From: a virus
IMG/VR virus record: IMGVR_UViG_3300043787_000148
Coordinates: 1-38,831 of that record
Direction: 5' to 3' (one strand)
DNA length: 38,831 nt
In this document: piece after piece, positions 309 to 28,588 of the stretch
Numbering within the stretch: the first letter of the stretch is position 1
Layout of the letters: every line of letters begins with the position of its first letter
Notes under the pieces: model-generated
What the model saw: only the letters and a program-made list of their open reading frames with translations
Database searches by the model: none
Told to the model about the DNA's origin: nothing
Program-made: the position numbers and the translations under genes

Positions 309-346
309 GCGGCGCAACGCAGGTGGATAGGACAGGTGGAAAGAGA

Positions 347-1579
347 ATGCTCAAGCCATACGACGTGATGAAACTCCCGGAAGGCAAACACTGTGACGGC
401 GACGGGCTCTGGCTCTACGTCAAGGGCGCAAGCCGGTCGTGGGTCGTGCGCAAGGACATCGCCGGCAAGCGCCGCGAGGTCGGCCTCGGCTCGGCCGCCA
501 ACGTCGCGCTGGCGATCGCCCGGAAGCGGCGCGACGAGCTCCTCGAGCAGTGGCGCAACGGCGTCGACCCGGTCGAGGAGAAGCGCAAGATCAAGGAGGC
601 GGCGGCGACGGCCGCCAAGCGCAAGACCTTCGCCGAGGCGGCCGAGGCCGTGATCGAGAAGAACCGCCCGGGCTGGAAGCTGTCGCTCGAAGGCCGCTCC
701 TCGACGCTCGATCAGTGGCGGCGCGATGTGGCGACCTGCGCGCCGATCGCGCGCAAGTTCGTCGACGAGATCACGACCGCCGACATCAAGACCGTGATCC
801 AGCCATACTGGGACCGGGAGCAGCTCGACAGCGCCCGGGCCTTGCAGAAGCGCATCGAGGCGATCATCGACTACGCCACCGCGCACGGCTGGCGCGCCGG
901 CGACAATCCGGCGTCATGGAACATCTTCAAGCACCTTTGGCCCGGTCAGAAACCGGCGGACGTCCATCATGCCGCGCTGCCCTGGCGCGAGGTCCCGGAG
1001 TTCCTCCAGCGGCTGCGGCAGTCCGAGGCGACCAGCGCCCGCCTCCTGGAGTTCGTCCTGCTGACCGCGGTCCGGTCCAACGAGGCGCGCGGCGCGACCT
1101 GGTCGGAGATCGATCTGGAGGCCCGTGTGTGGACCATCCCGGCGGCGCGGATGAAGATGGCCCGCGACCACACCGTGCCGCTCAGCGACCAGGCTGTGGC
1201 CCTCCTTGGCCGGATGGAGACGGAGAAGGTCGTCGAGAAGATCGACAGCGAGTTCGTCTTCGTCGGCGGCCGCGGGGCCGACGCCAAGGAAGCGGGCAGG
1301 CCGATGCGCAACGCCAGCCTGCATAGCCTGCTCAAGCGGGTGACCAGCGACGCGACCACCCACGGCTTCCGCAGCACGTTCCGCGACTGGTGCGGCGAGA
1401 CCGGCGTCGACCGCGAGCTGGCCGAGCGCTGCCTTGCGCACAAGGTCGGCAGCGACGCCGAGAACGCCTATGCCCGCTCCAGCCTGATCGAGCGGCGGCG
1501 CCCGATCATGCAGGCGTGGGGCGCGTTCGTCGACGGCGTCCGCGACAATGTCGTGCCTTTCGAGAGGAAGATCGCGTGA
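347..1579 (+). CDS. int: Phage tyrosine integrase, DUF4102 / P4-type
   Basis: Site-specific recombinase that integrates and excises the phage at an attachment site. The 410-residue length is normal for the family. The N-terminus (about 15-85) has the arm-binding DUF4102 pattern (DGDGLWLYV, then VGLGSAANVALAIAR). The catalytic domain shows R243 (LTAVRSNEARG), H339 and R342 (HGFRSTFRDW), H365 (CLAHK) and the nucleophile Y375 (AENAYARSS), so all key residues seen are intact. The ATG at 347 is chosen over an upstream in-frame start because GGTGGAAAGAGA lies just before it. The stop overlaps the next start (GTGA), so the two genes are translationally coupled. It shows that the element is temperate. 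Confidence 0.95.
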   Translation: MLKPYDVMKLPEGKHCDGDGLWLYVKGASRSWVVRKDIAGKRREVGLGSAANVALAIARKRRDELLEQWRNGVDPVEEKRKIKEAAATAAKRKTFAEAAEAVIEKNRPGWKLSLEGRSSTLDQWRRDVATCAPIARKFVDEITTADIKTVIQPYWDREQLDSARALQKRIEAIIDYATAHGWRAGDNPASWNIFKHLWPGQKPADVHHAALPWREVPEFLQRLRQSEATSARLLEFVLLTAVRSNEARGATWSEIDLEARVWTIPAARMKMARDHTVPLSDQAVALLGRMETEKVVEKIDSEFVFVGGRGADAKEAGRPMRNASLHSLLKRVTSDATTHGFRSTFRDWCGETGVDRELAERCLAHKVGSDAENAYARSSLIERRRPIMQAWGAFVDGVRDNVVPFERKIA

Positions 1580-17027: not shown

Positions 17028-17326
17028 CACACCCTCCCCCGCCAGACGCGGAACGGGGCGGCATCGGGCCCATTGAGAAACCGCCGCCAGTCGCCCTCGT
17101 CCCAGTTCTGCTGAACGGCGCGTTCGAAGATCTCGACCGGCAGGCGCGCGACCAGCTTGTTCACGCCGGCGTGCGACATGATCTCGCGATCGCGCGCGAC
17201 GCCGTCGAGGATCGGCTCGACGTCCTGCTCGGTGTGGACGACGAAGCGGTCGGGCCACTCGTCGTCCACGATCATCGTCCGCCGAACGCCATTGGCGTCG
17301 GCGTAGACGTAGCGCTGCTCGGTCAC
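17027..17326 (-). CDS. Small head protein (99 aa)
   Basis: A 99-residue protein with a GTG start overlapping the capsid stop (GTGA). It contains RYVYADANGVRRTMIVDDEW, then a helical middle (VEPILDGVARDREIM) and an Arg/Trp-rich end (FRVWRGRV). Similar small proteins follow the capsid gene in related phages; it may be a decoration or completion protein. No recognised motif. The coupling argues for stoichiometric expression with capsid. Confidence 0.6.
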   Translation of the reverse strand: MTEQRYVYADANGVRRTMIVDDEWPDRFVVHTEQDVEPILDGVARDREIMSHAGVNKLVARLPVEIFERAVQQNWDEGDWRRFLNGPDAAPFRVWRGRV

Positions 17327-18342
17327 TGAGTGATGCCGTTGAACAGCACGTGCGCGAGCGGGTTGCGCATCTCGAGGCCCCACTCGACCACGATCATGCG
17401 GGTCTCGGCGTCGCCGACGCGGGCCATCAGGTACTGACGGAACGCGCGGAAGAACGAAATCGCGGCATAGTCGGGATCGATCAAGAGCCCGATGTCGGGC
17501 GCGACCCACCGCGACGGGGCGACCTTGATCCGGCCGAAGTCGGTGGCGATCACATCGATGGTGCTAACCACCTCAGTCTTGCCGACCAAGACCTGGGTGG
17601 TGGCGCGGCCGGTGAAGGTCGAGATGGTCCTCTTGGGCCCCGGCGGCACGATCCATAATGACGGGCTCGCCCCGTTAGTATAGGCCTGCTGCATCGCGTT
17701 GCCGAGCATCGCCTCGGTGACTTGCTGGGGCGTGCCAGGAACTGCGAAGGCGTCGGTCGCCAGCACCGGCAGGCCGGTGGTGACGCCGGCCACCGCCGCG
17801 CCCGCTGTGCCGATCTTGCTGACCGCGCGCGCCACCCAATGGGCGAAGCCCTCGGTCACGCGGGCGACCGGCGTGGTGGCGTCGGTGCCGCCGTTGTAGG
17901 CCTGGCGGCTGCATGCGGCCATTTCCAAGTCGGACTTGAGCACCTTGCTGGCGAGCGCCATCTGATGCGCCATTTCCGACCCCTTGCCCGCCGCGTCGCT
18001 TTCCTCCTGGGTGCCCGACACGGTCGCGTCGCGCTCGGAGATCTGCGTCACGTTGTTGAGGCGGATGGTCGGCGTCGCCGGGGCGTTGGCGAGCGAGAAA
18101 CCTTCGACCTGGGCGTTGGGAGCGCCAGGCGTGCCCGCAGCAGGCGCGCCAGCGATGGACGGCTGAGAAACGAGCGGCAGAAACTCGGTCTGCCAGTCGA
18201 AGATCCGGTTCTTGACGTTGCGCCGGCGAATGGCCGACATAACAGGCGTGTCGAATGGATCGATGTTATAGATGGCGTTCGACAGATCTTCTCTATTCGA
18301 AGTCGCCTGGTAGGTGGTGAAGGCGTTCGTTACTTTTGGCAT
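17323..18342 (-). CDS. Major capsid protein, DUF5309 / SU10-type
   Basis: A 339-residue protein. The N-terminus (TNREDLSNAIYNIDPFDTP in essence, then MSAIRRR) and the central EVVSTIDVIATDFG with GRIKVAPSRW match the DUF5309 major capsid family with the HK97 fold. It forms the shell of the head. ATG with GAGGACGCA just upstream. It follows the scaffold gene with a 15-base gap, normal for capsid operons. Length is typical. Confidence 0.85.
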   Translation of the reverse strand: MPKVTNAFTTYQATSNREDLSNAIYNIDPFDTPVMSAIRRRNVKNRIFDWQTEFLPLVSQPSIAGAPAAGTPGAPNAQVEGFSLANAPATPTIRLNNVTQISERDATVSGTQEESDAAGKGSEMAHQMALASKVLKSDLEMAACSRQAYNGGTDATTPVARVTEGFAHWVARAVSKIGTAGAAVAGVTTGLPVLATDAFAVPGTPQQVTEAMLGNAMQQAYTNGASPSLWIVPPGPKRTISTFTGRATTQVLVGKTEVVSTIDVIATDFGRIKVAPSRWVAPDIGLLIDPDYAAISFFRAFRQYLMARVGDAETRMIVVEWGLEMRNPLAHVLFNGITQ

Positions 18343-19566: not shown

Positions 19567-19846
19567 GTCGCTGCCTCGGGCTGTTATGCACTGCCATCTT
19601 GTAATTGTTGATGATCACGCCGAGCTCGTCGGTGATGCCCCGGAGGGCCTTCGACATCGCCATGAGCTCGTCCCGGTGAGCCTGGTCGAGGGTGGTCATC
19701 ATCTCCTCGTACCAGCGGATCCGGAGCTCGCTGACCGCCTGTTGGAACGCCTTGTTGTTCAGGAGCTCCGAGGCCTCGTCGGCGAGCGCCCTTTTCTTCT
19801 GCAGGTCGTCGTTCGGCGGCGGCCGATTGCCGGGGTCGTCGATCAT
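19559..19846 (-). CDS. Small helical protein between portal and scaffold (95 aa)
   Basis: A 95-residue, mostly alpha-helical, charged protein (LADEASELLNNKAFQQAV, then LRIRWYEEMMTTLDQAHRDE). ATG overlaps the portal stop (ATGA). Its position and size are common in this group of phages. It could be a portal-bound accessory or a scaffold cofactor. Function unknown. Confidence 0.65.
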   Translation of the reverse strand: MIDDPGNRPPPNDDLQKKRALADEASELLNNKAFQQAVSELRIRWYEEMMTTLDQAHRDELMAMSKALRGITDELGVIINNYKMAVHNSPRQRHG

Positions 19847-22155
19847 GACCCGCCGCCGTTATTCGACTGCTGCGCGGCCTGCTGCTGGGCCGTCTCGGCC
19901 TGCAACTGCGCCGCCTGGCGCTGCTGATCGATCTTGGCCAGGTCGACCGCGGCCCCGAGGTGAGCAGTGTGGAGGTCGACGCCGGCGTCGAGGTGGGCCT
20001 GGTGGACGTCGGCCATGACCTTCGCCGCTTCGACCGGATCGACTGCGGTCGGGCCCTCGGGGCCGGCGCCGACGAAGATCTTGGCCCGCTCGATGTCGAG
20101 CTTCTGCTGGTCGTAGTCGGCTTTCTGCTTGAGCGCCGCAATTCGGTAGGCGTTGTCCTGGTCCTGCTTGTCCTTGCGCAGCTGCTGCTCGCCGATCGCC
20201 TGGGCGCCCTCGCTCTTGACCTTCTCGAACTGGGCCTTGGCGGCGACCGTTTGCGCGTCGGGCTCCTGCGGGGTCGCGGCGATCGCCGCCAGCACCTGCG
20301 GGCTTGGGGTCTTGAAGTAGCGCCCGGGGTTCTTGATGTTGGCGATGTCGAGCATGTCGCTGATGGTGTTCAAAAACTCCTGGATGCCGCAGACCGGATT
20401 GGTCGGGCCGAACTTGGCCATGATCATCATCTGATCGTTCTTGATCTGCTGCAGGGTCATCATCCGGATCGCGTCGGAGCCCTTGCCGAGCGTCGGGTTG
20501 ACCTCGACCCCCATGGTGGCGTCGAAGGTGCCGGTGTCGAGATCGGTCCATTGTCCGTTGATCCGCAGCGTCCGGCGCTGGTTCGGGGCCTCGGTGATTT
20601 CGTTGTAGAGGCCGTGGAATAAGTCCCTGAAGCCGGTTTCGGCGAGCACCCGGGCGACGAGCTCGGTCCGCTCCTGCTGGCCGTTGATGATCGCCTGGAC
20701 GCCGATCTCGGTGGACGACTGCAGCTGCTTGGGGTCGAGGCCCTTGGCGGCGTCGGATAAGCCGGTGCGGCGCTGGAAGATGGCGTTGAGCATGTCCAGG
20801 ACCGGCATCGCCTGCTGGCCGACGAACGGGGTCGTGGAGAAGCTGACGGCGGCCCTGGGATCGCCGCGGGTGCGGATGACGGCGCCGAGATCGTCGTTGA
20901 GCGCGTCGTCGATGTTGGTGGTGAGCTCGTTGACGACGGTCTTGGGGTTGATGCTCTCGGCCAGGCTGTCGAGCACCCCGCGCATCATGTTGGTTTTGAT
21001 GCGCTGGATGTCGATGGTGTAGTCGGCCATGCTGTCGCCGACGATGGTGTGGGAGATTGGGTCGCAGCCGAAGACGGCGAACTTGACCCGATTGGCGGTG
21101 GTGTCGTGGACGATCTCGTTGTCCTCGCCCATCGTGCAGATGTAGCGGAGCTCGGGCACGCCATCGCCGTCGGCGTCGACCTTGATGTACCACTCGCCGT
21201 AGAGGACGCCGTCGCCGACCCGGGTCGAGTTGTAGCGGCCCGGGTTTCTGAGCTGGGCCTCCATGGTGAAGTTCTGGATGTCCTGGCTCTGCAGGAAGTT
21301 GGCGCACTGCTCGCGCGGGTAGCCCATGGCGACGAGCTCGTCGATCGCCACCACCCGCTGGTGCCCGACGATGCGTGAGGTGCCGAAAGTTCTGGCGTAG
21401 CGGTCGAGCCGCATCTCCTCCGGCGGCACCCCCATGACTTTGATCAGGGGCTTGTCGACCAGGTATTCGAAGGTCACCTCCTGATAGGTGCCCATCTGCG
21501 GGTCGAGCTCGCCCAGGTGGACGATCTGGGCGGTGGCGTCCTGCTGCTGCAGGAGCTGGATCTGTTGCTGGTTGACGTTGATGAAGGTCTTGCGCTTCTT
21601 CTCGCGGTGGTCGTCGGTCCACCATTTGACGAAGCCGGTCTTGACGGTGAGCGCGTCCTTGAACGCCCCGTAGAGGATCAAAAAGCCCGGGTTATCCTGC
21701 CAAAAGACGTAGTTTATATAATTGGTCTGTTCTTGGGCGATCGCGACGTCGGCTTGGGTGCGCGGGGCGAGGTAGACGACGCTTTCGTGCGACGCGAACA
21801 GCCGGACCAGGCTCGGCAGCATCAGCATCACGGCGTCGCGCACGTCGGTCGAGACGTAGCTCGACTTGGTGGCGCTGTCCTGGTCGTAGCCGAGGATCTG
21901 CTCCCAGGTCTGGGTCGGATCCTGGATGATCATGGTGTCGGTGTAGGGGGAGCCGTCCGGGTTTAAGGACGGCAGATATCCGTAATAATATTTCTGCGCC
22001 TGGTCGCGGGCCGGGGCGAGGACCGAGCCCTCGTAGTCGCGGCTGTCGCGGATCAGGGCCTGGATGAACTGCTCATAGGTGGCCGGATCGCCTGGATCGT
22101 AGGCGTCGGGGCTTCCACCCTCTTTGAATGTAGCGAAAATGCGTTCTAGCGCCAC
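19843..22155 (-). CDS. Portal protein, P22-type
   Basis: A 770-residue protein, the right size for a large podovirus portal. It begins with a helical arm (ATYEQFIQALIRDSRDYEGS, then ARDQAQKYYYGYLP), has beta-rich wing and stem parts, and ends with a long Gln/Ala coiled tail like the barrel of P22 portals (AAQLQAETAQQQAAQQ). It forms the DNA channel at one capsid vertex and docks the terminase. GTG start, with GAGG seven bases upstream. It is the first gene of the 20-kb late operon. Confidence 0.85.
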   Translation of the reverse strand: MALERIFATFKEGGSPDAYDPGDPATYEQFIQALIRDSRDYEGSVLAPARDQAQKYYYGYLPSLNPDGSPYTDTMIIQDPTQTWEQILGYDQDSATKSSYVSTDVRDAVMLMLPSLVRLFASHESVVYLAPRTQADVAIAQEQTNYINYVFWQDNPGFLILYGAFKDALTVKTGFVKWWTDDHREKKRKTFINVNQQQIQLLQQQDATAQIVHLGELDPQMGTYQEVTFEYLVDKPLIKVMGVPPEEMRLDRYARTFGTSRIVGHQRVVAIDELVAMGYPREQCANFLQSQDIQNFTMEAQLRNPGRYNSTRVGDGVLYGEWYIKVDADGDGVPELRYICTMGEDNEIVHDTTANRVKFAVFGCDPISHTIVGDSMADYTIDIQRIKTNMMRGVLDSLAESINPKTVVNELTTNIDDALNDDLGAVIRTRGDPRAAVSFSTTPFVGQQAMPVLDMLNAIFQRRTGLSDAAKGLDPKQLQSSTEIGVQAIINGQQERTELVARVLAETGFRDLFHGLYNEITEAPNQRRTLRINGQWTDLDTGTFDATMGVEVNPTLGKGSDAIRMMTLQQIKNDQMMIMAKFGPTNPVCGIQEFLNTISDMLDIANIKNPGRYFKTPSPQVLAAIAATPQEPDAQTVAAKAQFEKVKSEGAQAIGEQQLRKDKQDQDNAYRIAALKQKADYDQQKLDIERAKIFVGAGPEGPTAVDPVEAAKVMADVHQAHLDAGVDLHTAHLGAAVDLAKIDQQRQAAQLQAETAQQQAAQQSNNGGGS

Positions 22156-22897: not shown

Positions 22898-23605
22898 ATG
22901 GCAGGCAAGTGGGCGTACATTACTTTCGTTGAGGACTGGGAGCGGCCCGTCGACCCGGGCTGGGGCGTCGGCCCAGGCGGCGGCCATCCCGATCAGGGCC
23001 TTCCTGGCCGTCCGGGCCGTCCGCCCCACGCCGGCCACCTGCCGAGCTTTGGCGGCCGCCCGGTCGACCCGGGCTGGGGCTGGGGCGGGGGCGAGCATCC
23101 GGGCCATGGGCTTCCGTGGCCTGGCCGCCCGACCGATCCGGGCTATGGGATCGAGGAGGAAGGCCCGTCAGCTGGTCAGCTGCCGGTCTGGCCGCTCGAT
23201 CCGGAGAAGCCCGAGCATGGCCTGCCGCCGCACCCTGGCCAGCCGCTGCCGCCGATGGATCCGCCTCCGGGCACGATCTGGCCGCCGCTGCCGCCCTATG
23301 TGCCGGCGGGCAAGGCGATCGTCCTGGTGGCGATCTCGGGCGTCGGCTACCGCTATGTCGTGGTCGAGATCCCCGAGCATCCGGAAGGGCCGGAAGTCGA
23401 GCCGCCGGAAGTCGAGCCGCCGCCGGAGCATCCTGATCAGGGTCTGCCGGGCCGGCCTGGCCGTCCGCCGGTCGCGGGCCAACCGCTGCCGCCGCAACGT
23501 CCGGGCGCCCCGCCGCCGGTCGCCGGTCAGCCGCTGCCGCGTCCTCCGGGGGCGCCGCCCCGCCCGGGTCAGGGCTTGCCCCCGACCGCACAGCCGAAGC
23601 GCTAA
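22898..23605 (+). CDS. Pro/Gly-rich repeat protein downstream of the endolysin
   Basis: A 235-residue protein, about half Pro, Gly and charged residues. Short repeats recur: HPDQGLPGRPGRPP occurs twice (about residues 29 and 183), VDPGWG twice near the start, and GQPLP several times. A short beta segment (AIVLVAISGVGYRYVVVEIP, about 140-160) is the only ordered-looking part. GGAG precedes the ATG. Possible roles are a spanin-like or surface-binding linker or a virion decoration protein; none is proven. At DNA level the repeats suggest growth by slippage. Confidence 0.6.
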   Translation: MAGKWAYITFVEDWERPVDPGWGVGPGGGHPDQGLPGRPGRPPHAGHLPSFGGRPVDPGWGWGGGEHPGHGLPWPGRPTDPGYGIEEEGPSAGQLPVWPLDPEKPEHGLPPHPGQPLPPMDPPPGTIWPPLPPYVPAGKAIVLVAISGVGYRYVVVEIPEHPEGPEVEPPEVEPPPEHPDQGLPGRPGRPPVAGQPLPPQRPGAPPPVAGQPLPRPPGAPPRPGQGLPPTAQPKR

Positions 23606-23703: not shown

Positions 23704-25020
23704 ATGCTCGCTGCCGAAGAGGCCCCGGCCGTCGACGACGGCAAGATCCAGATCCCCTACCGGCCGCGCCCGCATTTCCGCGCCCTGCACGCCACCACCA
23801 AGCGCTGGATCTTCTGCTGCTCGCACCGCCGCGCCGGCAAGACGGTGGCGATCTCCAACCACCTGATCCGCGCCGGAAGCTTAAACCCGCGCAAATGGCC
23901 GCCGCCGCGCTACGGCTATGTCGGCCCGAGCTTTGAGCAGGCCAAAGACTTGGTGTGGGCGTACCTCAAGCAATACACGGAGAATATCCCCGGCACCCGC
24001 TACCTCGAGGGCGAGCTCTGCTGCATCCTGCCGACCGGGGCGATCATCAAATTGTACGGGGGAGCCGCCGCCTACGAGCGCATGCGCGGCATGTATTTCG
24101 ACGGCATCGCGCTCGACGAATACCCGTTGCTCAACCCGGCGGTGTTCTCAACCGTGGTCAGGCCGTGCCTGGCCGACTATGGCGGGTTCGCCATCGTCTC
24201 CGGCACCTCGAACGGCGACGATCACTTCAACCAGCTCAGGATCAAGACCGAGAACGACCCGCGCTGGGACCAGTTCATCATCCCGTTGTCGTCGACCGGC
24301 GAGGACGCGCTCTCCCAGGCGGAAGCGAAAGAGCTCACCCAGGACATGAGCCCGGACGAATACGCGCGCGAGATGGAGTGCGCCTTCGACGCTCCGGTCG
24401 AGGGCTCGTACTACGGCGAGATCCTCAACACGCTCGCCCAACAGGGCCGGATCTGCTCGGTGCCGGTCGATCTGGCCGCGCCGGTGATCACCGCCTGGGA
24501 CCTCGGCATCCACGACTATTGCTGCATCTGGCTCTACCAGATCGCCGGCAAGGAGATCCATTTCATCGACTACATCCAGGGCAGCGGCAAGGGCCTCGAC
24601 TTCTACGCCCAGGAGCTCCGGTTAAGGGCGAAGAAGGGCGGCTTCGTCTACAAGTGCCACTGCCTGCCGCACGACATCGAGACCCGCGAGATCTCGACCG
24701 GGGCGGCGCGCCGGCTTTACCTCGAGGAGCATCTCGACGAGCCGATCATCGTCGCGCCGTTCTCCGCGGTCGAGGACGGCATCGCCGCCGCGCGCGGGCT
24801 TCTGGGCTTAAGCTGGTTCGACCTGGTGCACACCAAGCAGGGCGTCAGCATGCTGCGCGGCTACCGGCGCAACAAGATGGGCAATCCGGTGCACGGGCCT
24901 GAGCCCTACTCGCACGGGGCGGACGCCTACAGGACCTTCGCCTGCACCTTCCACATGGTCGGCGGCTTGAGCGCGCGCGGCTCCGGCCGGCTGCGGCGCA
25001 AGATCCGCGGGATCATGTAG
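23704..25020 (+). CDS. terL: Terminase large subunit
   Basis: ATPase-nuclease that packages DNA into the head. In this 438-residue protein the Walker A motif is at about 40-47 (SHRRAGKT), Walker B with catalytic Glu at about 132-139 (FDGIALDE), the coupling motif is near SGTSNGDDHF, and the nuclease acidic residues are in TAWDLGIHDY (D266), LPHDI and HGADAYRTF. Length is normal. ATG with GGGA upstream, itself in a hairpin. It is on the strand opposite to portal and overlaps the converging 94-residue gene by eight bases. Confidence 0.93.
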   Translation: MLAAEEAPAVDDGKIQIPYRPRPHFRALHATTKRWIFCCSHRRAGKTVAISNHLIRAGSLNPRKWPPPRYGYVGPSFEQAKDLVWAYLKQYTENIPGTRYLEGELCCILPTGAIIKLYGGAAAYERMRGMYFDGIALDEYPLLNPAVFSTVVRPCLADYGGFAIVSGTSNGDDHFNQLRIKTENDPRWDQFIIPLSSTGEDALSQAEAKELTQDMSPDEYAREMECAFDAPVEGSYYGEILNTLAQQGRICSVPVDLAAPVITAWDLGIHDYCCIWLYQIAGKEIHFIDYIQGSGKGLDFYAQELRLRAKKGGFVYKCHCLPHDIETREISTGAARRLYLEEHLDEPIIVAPFSAVEDGIAAARGLLGLSWFDLVHTKQGVSMLRGYRRNKMGNPVHGPEPYSHGADAYRTFACTFHMVGGLSARGSGRLRRKIRGIM

Positions 25021-27075: not shown

Positions 27076-27636
27076 TTAGACCGCGTAGCGGGCCGGCCGG
27101 CGCTTCCAGCCCAGGGCGCCCAAGAGGGAGAAGCCGGCGAGCGCCATCGCCCAGGTCGGGGCCTCCGGCACCGTCGCCGTCGCCGTCCCGTCAATGGCGA
27201 TGTGGATCGGCGATGCTCCGCTGAAGCCCGAGATCTCGGCGAAGTAATCGCCGGCGGCGAGCCCCTTCGGCAGGACGGTGGCTTCCTGGCCGCCGACGAC
27301 GTCGGCGATCGGCGAGCTCTCGATCAGCGCGCCCGCCGGGATGAACGGCGGGGTCGAGCCGGTCGACGTCCAGTCGTTGAGGCTGAGCGAGCCGAGAGTG
27401 ACCCGCTCAGAGCCGGTGGCGCTGTCGCTCATCGACAACGTCACGGTCTCATCGACCGGGATGTTGAACTCGAAGAACTGGGCGAAAGCCGCGCCTGAGC
27501 CCGGCGTCTGCTCGGCCGGCAGCGGCAGGCTTTCGTTAAGGATGCTACCGATATCCTCGACCGTCACCACGACCGCGTGGGCGGGGCCGGCGGCGATCGC
27601 GGCGATCGCGGTCGCCAGCAGCAGTTTTTTCAACAT
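27076..27636 (-). CDS. PEP-CTERM surface protein carried by the phage
   Basis: A 186-residue exported protein. Residues 1-21 are a signal peptide (KKLLLATAIAAIAAGPAHA). The mature part is acidic and beta-rich (FAQFFEFNIPVDETVTLSMS), like many small PEP-CTERM proteins. The C-terminus is a complete sorting signal: VPEAP (156-160), a hydrophobic helix to about 177 and KRR at 178-180. In hosts with exosortase, such tails are cut and the protein is placed on the surface or in exopolysaccharide. AAAGGGTGA precedes the ATG. It looks like a moron gene changing the lysogen's surface. Confidence 0.8.
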   Translation of the reverse strand: MLKKLLLATAIAAIAAGPAHAVVVTVEDIGSILNESLPLPAEQTPGSGAAFAQFFEFNIPVDETVTLSMSDSATGSERVTLGSLSLNDWTSTGSTPPFIPAGALIESSPIADVVGGQEATVLPKGLAAGDYFAEISGFSGASPIHIAIDGTATATVPEAPTWAMALAGFSLLGALGWKRRPARYAV

Positions 27637-27683
27637 GAAGTCACCCTTTCAAACACCCTCGGGCCAATCCCGATGGGATCTCA

Positions 27684-27899
27684 TCAATCGTCGTCAAAGT
27701 TCATCAGGCCCCACCACTCTCTCTGGCAGGCGACGCAGAATTTTGCCGCATGGCCGTCAGTGGTCCACATCATCAAGGGCACGTCGTCGTCTCTGAACGC
27801 GGCCGAGCAGTAGGAGCAGAGCGGGCTCACCACGCTGTCCGGGCGCCCCCAGATCACCTTCTTCCAGTCGAAGCCCGGTTTCGGCGCAAGCGTCGTCAT
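27684..27899 (-). CDS. Small CxxC...CxxC zinc-finger protein (71 aa)
   Basis: A 71-residue protein with CSYCSAAF and, about 25 residues later, CVACQREWWG, a four-cysteine metal site. ATG at 27899 overlaps the upstream stop by one base. A common type of phage small protein of unknown function, separated from the PEP-CTERM gene by 47 bases. Confidence 0.6.
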   Translation of the reverse strand: MTTLAPKPGFDWKKVIWGRPDSVVSPLCSYCSAAFRDDDVPLMMWTTDGHAAKFCVACQREWWGLMNFDDD

Positions 27900-28588
27900 C
27901 AGACTGCCCCCGCCGGCATGAACTTCATCGCCGCCAGGTGCATCCGGCCGAGGTCGTGGATCGCCTCGGGCCCGTCCTTTTTCGCCTCCGCGAACAAGAG
28001 CGGATAGCCGCTCTCGATCGAGGCCATGACCTCGCCCCGGGTGGCGCCCCGGCCTTCGGCCCACCAATCGATGCGGTCGGGCGCGCCAAGCCGGATCAGC
28101 CAGCCGCCGCCGTCATAGCCCGGCGAGCCCATCATCACCGCCTCACGGGTCTCGTAGAGCGCCATGCAGCCGGGGTTGCGCCTGATCATCGTCCCGCCGG
28201 GCGACCCAGCCTCGGGATCGAGCCCCTTCTGGTTGCGCTTCTCCCTCGGGTTGATCAGGAACGGGCAGGCCCTGGCGGCGTATTCGGCGCAGTCGCGGTG
28301 GCAGGCCGGCTCCGAGGTGGTGCGGTTGATCACGCACATCGGCCCGATCACGTAGATCTTGTGGGTCCCGGTCGGCTCGCCGCAGAGCCAGCACAACCCG
28401 CGCTTGAACGCCAGGTAGCGAAAGCCCTGGTCGGCGTAGCGGAAATCGGGCTTGTCGCTTTCGCGCGGCAATTGGGCGGGCTTGCCGGCCTTGGTGAACC
28501 ACATGACGAAGCGGGGCACCGGATAGCCGCGCTCGTCCCGCGCCAGGCGCTTGATCCGGTCCGGCATCTCAGGCAGGCTAACGGGCAC
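27899..28588 (-). CDS. Cysteine-rich phage protein (229 aa), unknown function
   Basis: A 229-residue protein starting at GTG with GAGGGGG six bases upstream. Residues about 66-110 contain CWLCGEPTG, then CVINRTTSEPACHRDC and ARACPFLIN, enough Cys/His for one or two metal sites. The remainder is mixed alpha/beta with many conserved-looking Gly and Trp (GSPGYDGGGWLIRLG). I know this family only as a conserved phage protein. It overlaps its upstream neighbour by eleven bases. A nucleic-acid-binding role would fit the metal sites but is not shown. Confidence 0.65.
   Translation of the reverse strand: MPVSLPEMPDRIKRLARDERGYPVPRFVMWFTKAGKPAQLPRESDKPDFRYADQGFRYLAFKRGLCWLCGEPTGTHKIYVIGPMCVINRTTSEPACHRDCAEYAARACPFLINPREKRNQKGLDPEAGSPGGTMIRRNPGCMALYETREAVMMGSPGYDGGGWLIRLGAPDRIDWWAEGRGATRGEVMASIESGYPLLFAEAKKDGPEAIHDLGRMHLAAMKFMPAGAV

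Follow-up and report, generated by a model that had tools for sequence, protein, structure and literature searches.

The DNA analysed here, referred to below as the window, corresponds to a 38,831-base IMG/VR virus record that encodes a capsid protein, a portal protein of the SU10 type, a terminase and a tyrosine integrase (Table 1), and because it encodes this integrase the phage is probably temperate. One of its genes specifies a protein of the family designated F1 in this work, which begins with the signal peptide MLKKLLLATAIAAIAAGPAHA, recognized by eye and likewise readable in the homologues, and ends in the tail VPEAPTWAMALAGFSLLGALGWKRRPARYAV. Within about 25-30 residues of the C-terminus this tail combines a PE(P) motif, a hydrophobic helix and a basic cluster, which together with an N-terminal signal peptide are the elements by which PEP-CTERM proteins are recognized. 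The third residue of the PE(P) motif is alanine in the window protein and not proline, the commonest residue at this position in F1 (70%).

The Pfam profile PF07589 matches residues 155-180 of the protein with 23.7 bits (hmmscan; cut-off 20.7). A six-frame search of the window DNA with this profile gave no match, since no candidate got past its initial step. The NCBIfam profile NF038126 (FxDxF PEP-CTERM) aligns with residues 7-179 at 43.5 bits, which lies below its curated cut-off of 50 bits, and the protein is classed by its sequence as a relative of this family and is not filed as a member. A strict pattern for the tail is matched 19 times across 21 records and not once in 20 codon shuffles of those records, which rules out a chance origin. 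The preliminary description, in which the protein was read as having a signal peptide and a PEP-CTERM tail, is borne out by these results, and the open reading frame can be taken to encode a genuine PEP-CTERM protein; the proposal that it is a substrate of the exosortase type also holds as far as the class of the sorting tail is concerned, given the PF07589 match and the invariance of the PExxTWxM...G pattern described below.

Table 1. Positions of the PEP-CTERM gene, its parts and the phage genes of the window
Feature	Position	Strand	Evidence
PEP-CTERM protein, family F1, 186 aa	27076..27636	-	PF07589 above cut-off; NF038126 over residues 7-179; 51 homologous virus loci; substitution ratios indicate purifying selection
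Sec signal peptide, residues 1-21, cleavage expected after AHA	27574..27636	-	read by eye; M1 invariant, A21 at least 90% conserved
Passenger domain, residues 22-154, predicted beta-sandwich	27175..27573	-	AlphaFold2 model; dN/dS 0.21, lowest of the protein
Sorting tail, residues 157-180: PEAPTWAM, transmembrane helix, KRR	27097..27168	-	PF07589 match 155-180; invariant motif; model helix 161-177
Possible ribosome-binding site gaaagggtga	27641..27650	-	read from sequence
c7, two-helix membrane protein, 53 aa	26909..27070	-	adjoins a PEP-CTERM gene in 16/16 c7-only loci
Possible small terminase subunit, flanking phage gene	26213..26722	-	homologues near terminase genes in related phages; weak HTH matches
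Terminase large subunit	23704..25020	+	PHROG 2, 1e-27
SU10-type portal protein	19843..22155	-	PF23899, 4e-149
SU10-type major capsid protein	17323..18342	-	PF17236, 5e-79
Tyrosine integrase	323..1579	+	PF00589 and PHROG 1

The AlphaFold2 model on which the predicted beta-sandwich and C-terminal helix in Table 1 rest has a mean pLDDT of 69, with values mostly of 65-91 in the core from about residue 41 onward. The structural neighbours of the F1 passenger are common beta-sandwich domains (best VIA Z 9.0, for the C-terminal domain of a Thermococcus protease, followed by collagen-binding and carbohydrate-binding modules), and a Foldseek search of the PDB returned no match for the passenger fold at E<1e-3. 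A collagen-binding or carbohydrate-binding function was not adopted from the fold, since the matches are weak (Z at most 9.0) and the beta-sandwich is common.

The gene belongs to the phage. The earlier reading had placed it there, and this is upheld, since the alternative that it is host DNA beside the phage is ruled out by the flanking phage genes and by the conserved synteny in relatives, among them a 46-kb virus contig (L002, G002) in which the same PEP-CTERM gene occurs in the same setting and with the same neighbours toward the terminase. It is an accessory gene among phage genes, the position of which varies between relatives, as is typical of phage cargo. The nearest deposited phage, Ochrobactrum phage vB_OspP_OH (Wolominvirus), shares the capsid, portal and terminase type of the window phage (its capsid is 62% identical), but searches of it revealed neither an F1 homologue nor a PEPSTWAM tail nor c7.

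Spread and conservation of the tagged proteins

Homologues of F1 were found in 51 metagenomic virus loci by a profile-guided scan of viral contigs. The signal peptide and the PExxTWxM tail are readable in 50 of them, and in the remaining locus the sequence stops short of the tail. Each of the 40 aligned members matches NF038126 at E<=1e-3, the window protein over its whole length; F1 differs from that family, however, in that the window protein stays below 50 bits and in that F1 was not found in the sampled host genomes. PF07589 is matched by 33 of the 40 members and NF033554, weakly, by seven.

Judged by the gene neighbourhoods, F1 occurs in at least three types of phage that are unrelated to one another. 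One is the SU10 type; in a second, which differs in its terminase and capsid, F1 lies within the operon of head genes; and a third has a terminase of PHROG 9. Across the F1 phages the terminases belong to PHROG 2 or PHROG 9 and the capsids to PHROG 1328 or 9953, and an integrase adjoins F1 in ten loci.

The median dN/dS of F1 is 0.27 overall, 0.21 in the core formed by the passenger and 0.35 in the tail, these being approximate values obtained with a simple counting method from pairs of 72-98.5% identity. The ratios indicate that F1 is under purifying selection, in the tail and passenger alike. Among 43 non-redundant members no substitution is seen at P157, E158, T161, W162, M164 and G168, whereas the majority of helix residues vary, and this persistence of particular tail positions in a drifting helix implies that the tail behaves like a recognized sorting signal and not like a plain anchor.

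PEP-CTERM proteins are not restricted to this family, and they occur at differing positions in 11 of the 13 SU10-type records that are 36 kb or longer. These records carry F1 or one of the other passenger families F2, F3 and F4; F2 and F3, which may be distantly related, end in the same motif as F1. The DNA pattern for PEPSTWAM matched at least 120 stretches in viral contigs, a number which is not a census because some contigs may include host flanks, and among the matches listed 122 of 124 translated ones lie near the C-terminus of an open reading frame, nearly all of them in typical tails. The same tail used as a query gave matches at chance level only in 50,697 deposited phage records, among which homologues of F1, F2 and F3 were likewise not found, and F1 was not found in 72,556 plasmid records. 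The preliminary description had held that PEP-CTERM proteins are not a usual phage cargo and had proposed a search of phage databases for their tails; the claim is correct for deposited phages and fails for soil virus contigs, in which such proteins are common. That many unrelated soil phages carry tagged proteins suggests that phages routinely use the host sorting pathway to alter the cell surface, and the disparity between the deposited phages and the soil virus contigs marks a blind spot of the cultured collections.

Several arrangements of these genes were observed in passing. In one unrelated phage type F1 lies between the gene in the scaffold position and the capsid gene (L159, L160, L187, L195, L197-L200, L203 and L205), a surprising location, among the head genes, for the gene of an exported protein. 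One 52-kb phage contig (G039, with loci L127 and L129) carries two copies of F1 about 42 kb apart, each by an integrase-family gene cluster. In the virus contigs of L105-L107 (G015), L246, L391, L397 and L402 two different PEP-CTERM genes lie close together, with c7 beside or between them.

The small membrane protein c7

The c7 gene begins 5 bases past the stop codon of the PEP-CTERM gene, directly downstream of it, and its product contains two hydrophobic segments. A search of viral contigs for c7 alone, in which a single-sequence query matched nothing and an alignment query was needed, gave 16 loci, and in all 16 a PEP-CTERM gene is directly adjacent, either before or after c7. The neighbours belong to several passenger families; in one of the loci the contig ends within the neighbouring gene, which could be identified by its F2 passenger. 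Over all the loci examined, 20 distinct c7 proteins were found, each beside a PEP-CTERM gene, and c7 accompanies 22 of 165 distinct PEP-CTERM open reading frames. This wider set is biased, because it was gathered mainly via PEP-CTERM genes; the set of 16 is the cleaner test, though part of it coincides with the loci gathered first.

It is likely, from this arrangement of the genes, that c7 and the PEP-CTERM gene are co-transcribed partners. No PHROG family matches c7, and Pfam and NCBIfam entries match it at chance level only; in a comparison with holins the best match was to PF07332, in one member only, with an E value of 1.4 and 9.4 bits (cut-off 28.4).

Exosortase and host genomes

A profile search of about 3.35 Mb of phage loci (with overlaps) found no exosortase, and the same profile check recovers 32 of 32 of its own exosortases. 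Given that none was found in the phages, it is the exosortase of the host that would have to act. An exosortase (PF09721) is present in 51 of 385 sampled Alphaproteobacteria (13%), a sample which is not tied to the host of the phage. Among named genomes, the closest prophage relative is found in Enterovirga aerilata, with a capsid about 50-54% identical to that of the window; this genome has no match to PF09721 or to PEP-CTERM, and its prophage region contains no PEP-CTERM tail. PF09721 is matched in two of six further genomes with distant capsid relatives, and the distant prophages of the sampled genomes contain no PEP-CTERM protein, which is uninformative at such low capsid identity.

Full-length F1 is absent from the 385 alphaproteobacterial genomes. 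Partial matches that reach into the tail occur in one genome only, and they look like ordinary host PEP-CTERM genes. The PEPSTWAM DNA pattern also occurs in one genome only of the class sample, in three copies and with an exosortase present, but this pattern cannot name the host, because it excludes the PEPAxW variant and because few genomes of the order that was searched first were apparently sampled.

Possible role of the tagged proteins

In the model put forward for the PEP-CTERM/exosortase (EpsH) system (Haft et al. 2006, PMC1569441), such a protein passes through the inner membrane and stays fixed there by its tail, and it is at this membrane that the exosortase acts on it. The window protein resembles the proteins of that system in its signal peptide, PE motif, helix and basic end and in having a passenger without known function, whereas the substrates of the EpsH system are chromosomal and usually number several per genome, and those described here are carried by phages, one or two at a time, with no phage exosortase and with a linked small membrane protein. 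A second precedent is PepA of Zoogloea (NF033554), a secreted PEP-CTERM protein associated with flocculation; according to PMC9012009 its overexpression bypasses the regulators needed for floc formation, and one such protein is thus able to alter aggregation. PepA differs in being chromosomal and betaproteobacterial, and its likeness to F1 may be mainly in the tail. Since PepA overexpression alone has this effect, one substrate supplied by a phage could be enough to alter the surface.

The most probable explanation, which is favoured on balance, is that the F1 protein is a cargo of temperate phages, encoded in a two-gene cassette and displayed on the cell surface or shed into the surface matrix by means of the host exosortase. 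The protein would be exported by Sec across the inner membrane and held in that membrane by the tail helix, after which the host exosortase would recognize PExxTW, cut the protein and thereby deliver it to the cell surface or the exopolysaccharide matrix; c7, probably made together with F1, would be the partner that assists or directs the exosortase step. The class model and the precedent of PepA together point to lysogenic conversion, affecting the surface or matrix, as the most likely benefit. Reduced superinfection can be named tentatively as the likeliest specific gain, followed by a change in adhesion or in the matrix; a PADLOC search gave no match. Against the explanation as a whole stand the nearest prophage-bearing genome, with its lack of an exosortase or PEP-CTERM match, and the fold matches, which are weak and name no function.

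Other explanations account for parts of the same evidence. If the tail were a decoy or inhibitor that occupies the exosortase, then fewer host PEP-CTERM proteins or less exopolysaccharide, which are possible phage receptors, would reach the surface; in this case c7 would contribute to the block, and the passenger would serve largely as a carrier. The constancy of the tail and of c7 while the passengers differ between families is in keeping with such a block, as is the presence in some phages of two PEP-CTERM genes around or before c7, but because the F1 passenger is more conserved than the tail (0.21 versus 0.35) it is disfavoured as a mere carrier, and the decoy is considered unlikely. A late lytic role, more than that of a lysogen gene, would fit the presence of F1 in the head-gene operon of one phage type, between the scaffold-position and capsid genes and on one strand with them: the pair would be made late and would act at the membrane or on exopolysaccharide for release or spread, with c7, a small two-helix membrane protein, resembling a holin. 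We regard such an envelope factor as improbable, given that c7 has no match to a holin family beyond the one noted above, that the integrase found beside F1 in ten loci has a counterpart in the window phage, and that lysis needs no sorting tail.

The two remaining explanations give the tagged protein less to do. The resemblance of F1 to the host family NF038126, together with the fact that genomes which have PEP-CTERM genes usually have several (Haft 2006, PMC1569441), is what would be expected if a host gene had been captured neutrally or recently with no benefit to the phage; this is quite improbable in view of the presence of F1 across unrelated phages, the purifying selection on it, the absence of its full-length form from the sampled alphaproteobacterial genomes and the recurrence of c7 as its partner. 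The tail might also be a generic membrane anchor that is read by no exosortase, since a helix with a basic end would appear in any stop-transfer segment and the host exosortase is putative, but six tail positions (P, E, T, W, M and G) never vary among F1 members, unlike the rest of the helix, and the motif is common to other passenger families, so that a plain anchor is very improbable indeed.

The favoured explanation, cargo sorted by the host exosortase, admits a more far-reaching form, which we consider possible though doubtful: c7 and the substrate would commandeer the host exosortase, with c7 engaging either the enzyme or the substrate while interchangeable passengers remodel the surface, for example to exclude competitors, along a route common to unrelated soil phages. 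In any form of the explanation c7 may offer a new handle on the handling of exosortase substrates, a poorly known step, and the PEP-CTERM tail a sequence tag by which such phage genes can be found and exosortase-bearing hosts predicted. Should exosortase substrates prove widespread in phages, lysogeny may influence the biofilms and flocs of soil bacteria as well as the properties of their surfaces.

So far, exosortase substrates have been known as products of chromosomal genes that are linked with exopolysaccharide and flocs. Lysogenic conversion genes, or morons, are accessory genes which occupy varying places in related phages and whose products are destined for the host surface; F1 resembles them in being accessory, in its varying position among relatives and in its predicted surface destination, and we know of no moron that uses an exosortase. 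No paper on phage PEP-CTERM genes or on exosortase-using morons was found in the literature searched, a search which was thin on subscription journals and preprints and leaves priority uncertain; the sorting system itself was already known, while no account of its substrates being carried by many unrelated phages, or of the linked c7, was found there. A study of hot-spring viruses describes 13 horizontally transferred proteins of the TIGR03118 family in the viral community, with a putative exosortase-interaction C-terminus.

Two other genes of the window were noted in the course of the analysis. At 22898-23605 lies a gene for a proline- and glycine-rich repetitive protein with PGRPG-type repeats; members of its protein cluster occur again in some 20 related loci, close to the portal gene or to F1. 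Upstream of the PEP-CTERM gene, at 27899-28588, a protein containing cysteine and histidine is encoded, which is conserved in relatives and has no family match, and a protein similar to it adjoins a pair of c7 and F3 genes in L223.
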